Assembly (NCBI RefSeq): GCF_014201375.1 | Contig: NZ_JACHDZ010000009.1 | Coordinates: 1 to 64,000, forward strand | Length of the DNA stretch: 64,000 nt | From: Tunturiibacter empetritectus | GTDB lineage: Bacteria > Acidobacteriota > Terriglobia > Terriglobales > Acidobacteriaceae | Reading direction: 5' to 3' | Shown here: positions 35,762 to 39,640 of the stretch, piece by piece | How the letters are laid out: every line of letters starts with the position of its first letter | Numbering within the stretch: the stretch's first letter is position 1 | Made by a program: the position numbers and the translations under genes | Notes under the pieces: generated by a model | What the model was told of the DNA's origin: nothing | Database searches by the model: none | What the model saw: only the letters and a program-made list of their open reading frames with translations

Positions 35762-36589
35762 TTAGTTCATCCAGCGTTTGTCGTTTGGGTTCTTGCGGAG
35801 TTCGTCGGGGTCTACGTAGCGGCCGTCCTTGTCGAAGTGGACCTCGCGGTTCTGCTTCTTCATGTAGACCTCGAACTTTCGGGCGGCGCGGCGGCGCTTC
35901 CAGCGGTAGTAGCGGTTGCGGACGCCGAAGTACTGCTCGGAGGCGGCGAAGGCGAGGCCGCGGCGGGGGGCGAACTTGACGAAGAGCGCGCCGCAGAGAG
36001 CGCCCGAGAGCTGGATGAGGGCGTTGAAGCTGTCGGCCTGCTTGAGCAGGATGGCGATGGCGATGAGGATGTAGATCGCGACCATGTACTTGGCCTTGAT
36101 GCGGAGGACAAACCAGAGGAGGAACTCCTGGTCGCCGAAGATCATGGCGATGGCGACCATGAGGCCGAAGATGCCGGACCAGGCGCCGGCGGCGACGATG
36201 TCGGGACGCAGGCCGAGGACGTGGGTGAAGGAGATGGCAGAGGCGATGATGGCTCCGCCGATGACGGAGGTGAGGTAGAGCTCGGCTAACCAGCGGCCGC
36301 CGAAGGAGGGCTCGAGGAGGGAGCCGGTGAACCAGAGGGTGAGCATGCCGAAGAGGATGCCGAGGATGCCCTGTTCGACGAAGGAGTAGGTGAGGAGCTG
36401 CCAGAGTTCGCCGTGGAGGACGGCGATGGGTTCGAGGATGAGATGGGCTAGGAGGACAGCCTGGAGCTGTGGGGCGAGCCAGCGGAGGAGGAGCAGGCCG
36501 AAGAAGGTTCCGACGTTCAGAAGGATGAGCTTGCGGGTGGTGCCTTCGAAGGCGGGGAGAGCGAGCGAGATGGGGCCGGAACGGGGCAT
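35762..36589 (-). CDS. rhomboid-like membrane protein, incomplete catalytic dyad
   Basis: About 275 residues with six predicted helices, in the order of rhomboid proteases: KLILLNVGTFFGLLLL, HGELWQLLTYSFVEQG (the WR-like loop and TM2), TLWFTGSLLEPSFGGRW, GAWSGIFGLMVAIA (catalytic Ser in GxSG-like context) and a last helix FNALIQLSGALCGALF, where rhomboids have the catalytic His before GG. Here that position is Gln/Leu, so the dyad looks incomplete. The C-terminal basic and acidic tail (KRRRAARKFEV and KDGRYVDPDEL) is cytoplasmic and typical of acidobacterial relatives. Start has no Shine-Dalgarno. Confidence 0.75.
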   Translation of the reverse strand: MPRSGPISLALPAFEGTTRKLILLNVGTFFGLLLLRWLAPQLQAVLLAHLILEPIAVLHGELWQLLTYSFVEQGILGILFGMLTLWFTGSLLEPSFGGRWLAELYLTSVIGGAIIASAISFTHVLGLRPDIVAAGAWSGIFGLMVAIAMIFGDQEFLLWFVLRIKAKYMVAIYILIAIAILLKQADSFNALIQLSGALCGALFVKFAPRRGLAFAASEQYFGVRNRYYRWKRRRAARKFEVYMKKQNREVHFDKDGRYVDPDELRKNPNDKRWMN

Positions 36590-38922: not shown

Positions 38923-39014
38923 AATAACAAGGATAAATAGCCAGGACGTCCACGGGGATGTTCCTGTAATCCTATAGACGGGCGAGTGGGCCCAAAGACC
39001 CTGGAGGCACGATC

Positions 39015-39215
39015 ATGGCTGTTGTTTGTCCGGAATGCGATAACCCGATTGTGGTTGACGTCGATGAAGTGGAAGAGGGAGAGATGGTCCAGTGCGATGA
39101 GTGCGGCGTCGACCTCGAGGTGGTTTCGGTGGACCCACTGGAGTTGGCGGCTATCGACGATGCGGGTTATGACGATGAAGATGTGACGCATACCGACGAA
39201 GAGGAAGAGGAGTAA
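39015..39215 (+). CDS. orphan LysW/ArgW-like carrier protein
   Basis: A 66-residue acidic protein. Two CxxC knuckles, [20 protein letters not shown] and [16 protein letters not shown], with DPLELA following, match the zinc ribbon of LysW, the amino-group carrier protein of lysine/arginine synthesis. LysW ends in EDWGE and its last Glu carries the substrate; this one has a longer acidic tail ending in five Glu, so a C-terminal Glu is kept but the EDWGE motif is lost. GGAGG lies 7 bases before the ATG. No lysX, lysZ or lysY partner is near. It may be a carrier for another pathway, or only a zinc-ribbon protein. Confidence 0.75.
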
Positions 39216-39253: not shown

Positions 39254-39640
39254 ATGAAGCGTACTGATCTCTTGCTCCGTTCGTTTGCTGGTAAGGTGAT
39301 TCTCGCCTCTTGTGCGATGGTGGCTGTCGCGGGTGCTGTGCGGTCGGTCTCTGCGGTTGCGGAGCAGCGGGGGCCTGTGCAACGGGTCGTGCAGGGCAAG
39401 GTTACCGATAGCAGCGGCGCGATTGTGAAGGGCGCGGTGGTGTATCTGAAGGATGGCCATAGCCTGTCGGTGAAGAGCTTTTTTTCCGATGACGAGGGCG
39501 GCTATCGGTTTGGGCAGCTGGCGCAGAATACGGACTATGAGATCTGGGCGGAGAGTAACGGGAAGAAGAGCGCCGTGAAGACGATCAGCTCATTCGATAA
39601 CAAGAATCAGTTTTATATCGATTTGAAGATCGGAAAGTAG
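39254..39640 (+). CDS. exported carboxypeptidase-regulatory-like domain protein
   Basis: About 128 residues. Signal peptide: basic MKRTDLLLRSFAGK, hydrophobic VILASCAMVAVAGAV. The mature part is one beta-sandwich of the carboxypeptidase regulatory/CarboxypepD_reg type: VVQGKVTDSSGAIVKGAVVY, then DDEGGYRFGQLAQNTDYEIW and NQFYIDLKIG. This domain is abundant in acidobacterial TonB-dependent receptors; here it is free-standing. It follows the LysW-like gene by 38 bases but seems to have its own -10. No partner is evident. Confidence 0.8.
   Translation: MKRTDLLLRSFAGKVILASCAMVAVAGAVRSVSAVAEQRGPVQRVVQGKVTDSSGAIVKGAVVYLKDGHSLSVKSFFSDDEGGYRFGQLAQNTDYEIWAESNGKKSAVKTISSFDNKNQFYIDLKIGK

Follow-up and report, generated by a model that had tools for sequence, protein, structure and literature searches.

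A LysW-like zinc-ribbon protein with an acidic tail in Acidobacteriota, possibly exapted after loss of its carrier pathway

LysW-type carriers have been recruited outside primary lysine and arginine synthesis, as in the AmCPs of Streptomyces secondary metabolism, which keep the terminal Glu and a LysX-type ligase of their own. Two other families of small zinc-ribbon proteins can be set beside them. The first is FYDLN_acid (PF09538; TIGR02300 is presumably the same family), for which we know of no function; the second is the Mycobacterium protein Ruc (Rv0991c), the ribbon of which we take to belong to PF09723. Among the matches listed, no literature was found on the function of FYDLN_acid or on LysW relatives with an acidic tail. 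In PMC10433800, the GSWGR element of LysX/ArgX is described as recognising the EDWGE end of the carrier, the last Glu of which is the attachment site.

The window, that is, the whole stretch of 64,000 nucleotides of Tunturiibacter empetritectus analysed here, carries a gene for a protein that shares with LysW/ArgW (TIGR01206, NF041070, PF21344) a four-Cys zinc ribbon, the core motif, the LysW fold and an acidic C-terminus. However, it has neither EDWGE nor a conserved terminal Glu nor a LysX/ArgX near the cut-off, and its tail is longer and polyacidic. The conserved terminal Glu and the LysX-type ligase also distinguish the Streptomyces AmCPs from it. With FYDLN_acid it has in common a small four-Cys ribbon followed by an Asp/Glu-rich tail, but those proteins carry their own FYDLN motif, which is absent from the window protein, and several of them a basic linker. 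Ruc resembles it in joining a zinc ribbon of about 50 residues to a variable, disordered, hydrophilic tail; it appears to differ in its ribbon family and in its chaperone-linked genes. The features of the locus are as follows.

39015–39215, + strand: LysW-like protein with acidic tail, 66 amino acids and stop (ORF reading, profile searches)
39003–39007, + strand: GGAGG ribosome-binding site, 7 nt before the ATG (direct sequence reading)
39015–39146, + strand: LysW-fold zinc ribbon, residues 1–44 (PF21344, AlphaFold2 pLDDT, PDB matches)
39027–39038, + strand: first CxxC (Cys5, Cys8; putative zinc ligands), no variation among 36 selected diverse rows
39093–39104, + strand: second CxxC (Cys27, Cys30), presumed zinc ligands, invariant in the same 36 rows
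39165–39182, + strand: GYDDED block, residues 51–56, at the site of canonical EDWGE (alignment; pN/pS 0.058 in 24 orthologues)
39183–39197, + strand: variable linker, residues 57–61 (pN/pS 0.79)
39198–39212, + strand: acidic end, residues 62–66, EEEEE in the window protein (pN/pS 0.19 in 24 orthologues)
39254–39640, + strand: CarboxypepD_reg-like (CPreg) protein (PF13620, 4e-11; found by tblastn at 28 of 28 loci)
35762–36589, − strand: rhomboid-family membrane protein, a divergent neighbour given for context (PF01694; 26 of 28 loci)

Family assignment and distribution

The open reading frame is a real gene. A chance reading frame is ruled out by 28 orthologues in Acidobacteriota with 61–97% identity, the nearest matches being from Edaphobacter lichenicola, and by a pN/pS of 0.16 in the ribbon of the 24 ungapped sequences. 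A phage origin is unsupported, the best PHROG match having a value of 0.0012 (a Lar-like family). Promoter and terminator patterns were sought and none was found, against a chance expectation of 0.5–0.6.

The globular domain profile PF21344 recognises the window protein with an E value of 1.8e-13 and 50.3 bits (cut-off 27), and the protein is the sole match over the cut-off in the host genome, which is 99.3% complete and 4.83 Mb in size. The solved structures closest by sequence are one Thermus LysW and one Thermococcus LysW. The AlphaFold2 model has a pLDDT of 82–88 for residues 1–40 and of about 50 for residues 51–66; its best structural matches are five LysW entries (Z 6.3–7.0), with the next family at Z 3.5, and they include 3wwn and 5eio, chain C of which superimposes with an rmsd of 1.3 over 46 residues. 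The protein therefore has the LysW fold, and the preliminary description, which had recognised a LysW-type zinc ribbon from the cysteine pattern, was right in this respect. It is, however, not a standard LysW: EDWGE is missing, and the score falls below the cut-offs of both the LysW family TIGR01206 (41.6 versus 53.2 bits) and the archaeal LysW/ArgW family NF041070 (36.7 versus 75 bits). We infer that it descends from a LysW/ArgW carrier by decay of the gene cluster. Annotation by homology would likely label such genes as lysine biosynthesis, which would be wrong here and could lead to errors when pathways are reconstructed for this common soil phylum.

Relatives of the protein are widespread. 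PF21344 has matches at E≤0.001 in 199 of 396 genomes of the phylum and over the cut-off in 168, counts that include canonical LysW and some weak matches inside larger proteins. An HMM of the ribbon, built from 36 acidic-tail relatives, matches 168 of the 396 phylum genomes and 254 of 299 genomes of the class (211 of the 240 of good quality); canonical LysW is still included, for example in families f93 and f48, and accounts for at least 13 of the class matches. In f1, the family of the window, 72 of 74 sampled genomes have a ribbon match, one each. One genome (G103) has two PF21344 matches and one match to the ribbon HMM.

The acidic tail and the search for a ligase

The preliminary description had seen an acidic tail of five Glu in place of EDWGE. 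The replacement is borne out by sequence and alignment, and the EEEEE end is present; the tail itself is longer than described and consists of the GYDDED block, the linker and then the acidic end. The three parts are under different selection (pN/pS values in the list above). GYDDED, which aligns with the EDWGE region, is near-invariant and more tightly constrained than the ribbon, the linker is nearly free, and each of the last five residues is acidic in 96–100% of the 24 orthologues, Asp and Glu being interchanged. Taken as a whole the tail is less conserved than the ribbon. Twelve of its 22 residues are acidic in the window protein, and among the relatives the Asp/Glu content reaches 90% and the length ranges from 5 to 47 residues. 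A chance acidic repeat is ruled out, as Asp and Glu exchange while acidity stays at 96–100% despite near-saturated synonymous sites.

The identity of the last residue is less constant. The 55 tails of the family type (f1-type) end in Glu (44), Asp (6), Ala (2), Ser (2) or Tyr (1); elsewhere in the phylum, terminal Glu is missing from 33 of 53 rows, and within the class 13 of 17 acidic-tail rows outside the family lack it and four have it. Trp, Tyr, Lys and Ala are among the last residues of the tails without Glu. The exchange between Asp and Glu, the retained acidity and the varying last residue together indicate that composition is kept and not the terminal Glu. On a tree of the ribbon (41 columns), acidic tails require four changes on the best tree and one change in 22% of 200 bootstrap trees, so that a single origin may be assumed as well as several.

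Not all LysW-like ribbons that were encountered carry such a tail. The Anaerolineae bacterium Bin_81R has one with a long basic tail, KKNRYRKADKLPTKSRKSRG (L048); three loci of family f40 (L147, L149 and L248) hold a second copy of about 50 residues that is almost tail-less, the first two with neighbours in common; and two short proteins of family f28 have the variant ends CAEDFGI and CAEDFGL (L176, L182).

The canonical end is closely associated with the ligase. In the phylum sample, a LysW-like gene lies within 6 kb of 41 of the 44 LysX loci over the cut-off (the other three are in G032, on contig 11 of G301 and in G330), and 36 of these 41 proteins end in EDWGE and five in EDWGQ. In a hand-picked subset of the class, LysX is over the cut-off in 13 of 53 genomes, each with a neighbouring LysW that has the EDWGE end. 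An EDWG(E/Q) end is thus present in 54 of 54 LysX-adjacent proteins and in 0 of 108 relatives that are not beside LysX, the latter being distinct sequences that come in part from closely related genomes, so that the rows are not independent; for L002–L029 LysX was sought within the locus only, and three of the 108 rows are from genomes with a LysX over the cut-off on another contig (G041, G253 and G063). The 108 rows comprise the window, 28 Acidobacteriota loci, all 60 regions L093–L152, and 19 of 30 further loci from hand-picked genomes. The 60 regions were chosen by hand, with their tails still unread, from PF21344 rows outside the first 30 loci taken from that search. Dropped from the set were L153, L170 and L173, which lie beside LysX and were moved to the LysX-adjacent group, L168, L174, L177, L178, L180 and L181, which are parts of other proteins, and the short relatives L176 and L182 ending in EDFGI and EDFGL. 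In G330, a genome with 8% contamination, LysX is over the cut-off and has no adjoining LysW, and an acidic-tail protein is located on another contig.

The EDWGQ end beside LysX occurs at L153, L170, L231, L233 and L237 (families f68, f8, f12 and f5); L238 has it as well, on a different contig from its LysX. Terminal Gln has no free gamma-carboxylate, and loading of these proteins must therefore differ or need deamidation.

In the host genome no LysX near the cut-off was found, either within the window or elsewhere, and with the LysX_arch profile neither it nor any of the 44 f1 genomes searched yields a match at E≤1e-20. The RimK profile has four matches in the host genome. The one inside the window is purD, and two others resemble, by eye, biotin carboxylase and carbamoyl-phosphate synthase. 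The fourth (L059; 339–351 amino acids, contig 5 of the host assembly at about 56.4 kb) is a diverged RimK-like ATP-grasp protein that passes the PF08443 cut-off (29.0 bits, cut-off 21) and lies far below those of RimK (TIGR00768, 69.9 versus 143.4) and LysX (TIGR02144, 47.3 versus 275.6). It is encoded on a different contig from the lysW-like gene, next to what looks by eye like a luciferase-like monooxygenase gene, and has GGSGSG at the position of GSWGR in the LysX of family f94. As judged from its sequence, it may be a candidate ligase.

Because of this protein, a carrier for another product is kept among the alternatives: a divergent ligase would attach amino groups, or a glutamate chain, to carboxylates of the acidic end, either the terminal one or those of side chains. 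The weakly LysX-like candidate and the 44 of 55 family-type tails that end in Glu would fit this scheme. Yet terminal Glu is wanting in many relatives, 11 of the family-type tails among them, and the ATP-grasp protein scores far below the ligase families, is unlinked to the gene and lacks GSWGR. We regard such a carrier as very improbable, and with no LysX near the cut-off and an unconserved terminal Glu it was rejected as the best reading.

The preliminary description had left the choice between an amino-group carrier for a different product and a non-carrier relative. The same two observations speak against the former and for the latter. Its view of the gene as an orphan holds for the window and for the host genome alike, the search for LysX-type ATP-grasp ligases that it proposed having returned the diverged RimK-like protein and nothing near the LysX cut-off. 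A second, canonical LysW, which it had considered, is not present; the window gene is the only LysW-like gene of the genome, and no canonical partner was found elsewhere, the combination of an only LysW with such partners having been named there as evidence against its proposal. It had also named homologues whose tails do not end in Glu as such evidence, and the retention of terminal Glu that it assumed fails in the 11 family-type tails.

Intact and reduced gene clusters

Family f94 contains both forms of the locus. In genome G401 the gene order is DAHP synthase, prephenate dehydratase, lysW-lysX-lysY-CPreg-DUF421-like-lysZ and a dipeptidase-like gene, the DUF421-like label being our own reading. 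The loci of genomes G408 and G415 share these flanks and have kept lysW, with lysX, lysY and lysZ absent; the flanks of G401 and G408 are 62–84% identical over the four pairs compared. NCBIfam names the genes of G401 that are missing from the other two as LysX (357 bits, cut-off 276), ArgC/LysY (386, cut-off 234) and [LysW]-aminoadipate kinase (435, cut-off 223), and it also names the prephenate dehydratase and the DAHP synthase of G408. The f94 LysX carries GSWGR. No traces of lysX, lysY or lysZ were detected by tblastn at the G408 and G415 loci, and LysX was not found anywhere in these two genomes. From the first Cys to ELAP, 38 of 43 residues of their LysW are identical to that of G401, but the end is ELAPEEEEDWGE in G401 versus ELAPGDED(E/D)EEWEG in G408 and G415. 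The direction, loss of the three genes rather than gain, appears the likelier one from these gene orders. Over 57 codons, lysW of G408 and G415 differs by 10 synonymous and one nonsynonymous change, with none falling in codons 1–47. This pattern indicates that lysW was protected after pathway loss.

The neighbour downstream of lysW connects family f94 with the window. The CPreg gene of the window begins 38 bp downstream of the lysW-like ORF and encodes a small protein, secreted judging by eye from its N-terminus. A relative lies on the same strand, 188–399 bp from the lysW start, at all 28 loci searched by tblastn, and the corresponding gene cluster is called in 35 of 49 f1-type loci, the gene calls being simple ORF choices and the remainder distant genera or mis-called. 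The rhomboid neighbour is missed at two of the 28 loci, one of which is a short locus. Four f1 genera have two CPreg genes behind lysW, c31 and then c2, and the same order is found in G415 of f94 (CP16, then CP17). The c31 HMM matches CP16 at 3.5e-27 in G415 and at 4.2e-26 in G401, where lysY immediately precedes it. With the c2 HMM, of which the CPreg gene of the window is a member, CP17 near lysW in f94 loci is matched at 2.8e-24 and 2.6e-22. The two groups match each other less well (c2 3.6e-7 to 1.3e-5; c31 1.8e-6 to 4.1e-6; overall about 1e-5 to 1e-10). The CPreg neighbours of f1 and f94 are likely orthologous by profile similarity, although CarboxypepD_reg domains are common. In family f93, in which lysX is intact, a c2-like gene (6e-14 to 2e-11) is situated behind lysY; in the locus with a called lysZ, it precedes that gene. 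The gene orders of f94, f93 and f1 together show CPreg following lysY in complete clusters and adjoining lysW on its downstream side in loci that lack the cluster. No remnants of lysX, lysY or lysZ near the f1 genes were matched at 0.01 in 61 targets (the window and 60 related loci). The closely spaced lysW-CPreg pair of the window looks like the leftover of such a deletion, as far as gene order can tell.

If a lone lysW is what remains of a cluster, as the f94 comparison suggests, it could be a decaying relic without function. This is extremely improbable: purifying selection is strong in the ribbon, in GYDDED and in the acidic end, and in f94 also after pathway loss, and ribbon relatives persist in nearly every sampled f1 genome. 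The LysW-like relatives are under strong purifying selection, and the f94 loci appear to provide a case of exaptation in which a carrier that lost its ligase, kinase and reductase was retained and its end altered, the complete and the reduced locus both occurring within one family.

The host genome contains lysA and argJ, both over the cut-off, and lysine and arginine therefore have other routes. The presence of argJ, and with it the acetylated arginine route, brings up a further alternative, in which the LysW domain would act as a regulator or decoy and dock, without substrate, on the classical enzymes of the ArgB, ArgC and ArgD type. LysZ and LysY score as members of the ArgB and ArgC families, both are contacted by LysW in solved complexes (two entries, 3wwn and 5eio, match the window protein among the best by structure), and the ribbon is better conserved than the tail as a whole. 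Against this, the genes identified beside the window gene include none for arginine or lysine biosynthesis, and the conserved polyacidic tail would be left unexplained; by analogy with the known complexes such a role is conceivable and quite unlikely.

Outside f1 the neighbours vary by family and include, by eye from translations, LarE-like, VWFA-type, Pal-like and response-regulator genes. Since they differ between families, no universal partner emerged. At seven loci from several other families (L121, L123, L132, L134, L137, L138 and L143) a gene that appears by eye to encode a LarE-like sacrificial sulfur transferase lies behind the acidic-tail gene, in most cases as its immediate neighbour.

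A polyanionic zinc ribbon and its counterparts

The explanation we favour, with a confidence slightly better than even, is that a LysW amino-group carrier was exapted after the loss of its own pathway and is now a non-carrier with a new role. The window gene would have arisen by deletion within a lysW-lysX-lysY-CPreg-lysZ cluster, which left lysW beside the CPreg gene. The absence of a recognisable ligase and attachment motif, together with a tail held for its charge, makes a non-carrier most likely, and no amino acid would then be attached to the protein. Acidic disordered tails commonly serve electrostatic binding or screening of basic partners. In the window protein, docking would fall to the zinc ribbon as a small folded module, and the tail, disordered and polyanionic with GYDDED and the acidic end, would bind or screen basic protein surfaces, with nucleic-acid-binding or ribosomal proteins as candidate partners. 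If true, this would make small acidic-tailed zinc-ribbon proteins, FYDLN_acid among them, more accessible to study.

The same architecture invites comparison with Ruc. The part of PMC7448276 that was available describes Ruc homologues as a four-Cys ribbon of about 50 residues that is joined to a hydrophilic tail varying in length from 7 to 61 residues. By analogy, the window protein could be a redox-switched holdase chaperone, in which oxidation would release zinc and form disulfides and the disordered hydrophilic tail would hold unfolded proteins; the invariance of the four Cys agrees with this, and one relative weakly matches Zn_ribbon_8 (PF09723, 2.8e-4, 21.3 bits, below the cut-off of 34.4). 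The family profile, however, is that of LysW and not PF09723, which is absent from the best 25 of the 33 profile matches of the window protein, and no chaperone gene was recognised among the named neighbours. Polyacidic character does not belong to the tail description in that part of the source, and its table gives Ruc in 100% of nine Acidobacteria, in which the role may already be filled. On these grounds we consider a Ruc-like chaperone unlikely.

A more far-reaching form of the favoured explanation concerns FYDLN_acid. It supposes that in Acidobacteriota an amino-acid carrier has become a polyanionic zinc-ribbon factor with a housekeeping role, the one that FYDLN_acid has elsewhere, the design of a ribbon with an acidic tail having been reached twice and the two proteins replacing each other. 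PF09538 is present in 59 of the 396 phylum genomes, none of which belongs to f1, and none of the 59 has a match to the LysW-like ribbon HMM, against 168 of 396 overall (Fisher 1.9e-16 per genome, ignoring phylogeny). Counted per family, with labels assigned by hand and the class families read later left out, none of 13 FYDLN families overlaps the 23 acidic-tail families among 87 (Fisher p 0.017, ignoring phylogeny). The pattern does not extend to families with canonical EDWGE LysW, two of which are shared with FYDLN families (p 1.0). The exclusion may reflect clade structure. A profile comparison of the two ribbons did not establish homology, ten columns being aligned with 52% probability. Nine of 18 FYDLN_acid proteins end in Tyr or Phe. 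Five gene clusters are shared between the neighbourhoods of the two proteins, with one to three loci per side and none consistent. Judged from these patterns, mutual replacement is a tentative proposal and rather doubtful.

Canonical and acidic-tail forms are found side by side in four genomes, as L150 and L065 (G041), L151 and L064 (G253), L209 and L068 (G107), and L210 and L069 (G391). The occurrence of both paralogues in one genome indicates that the presence of the pathway does not preclude the second role.
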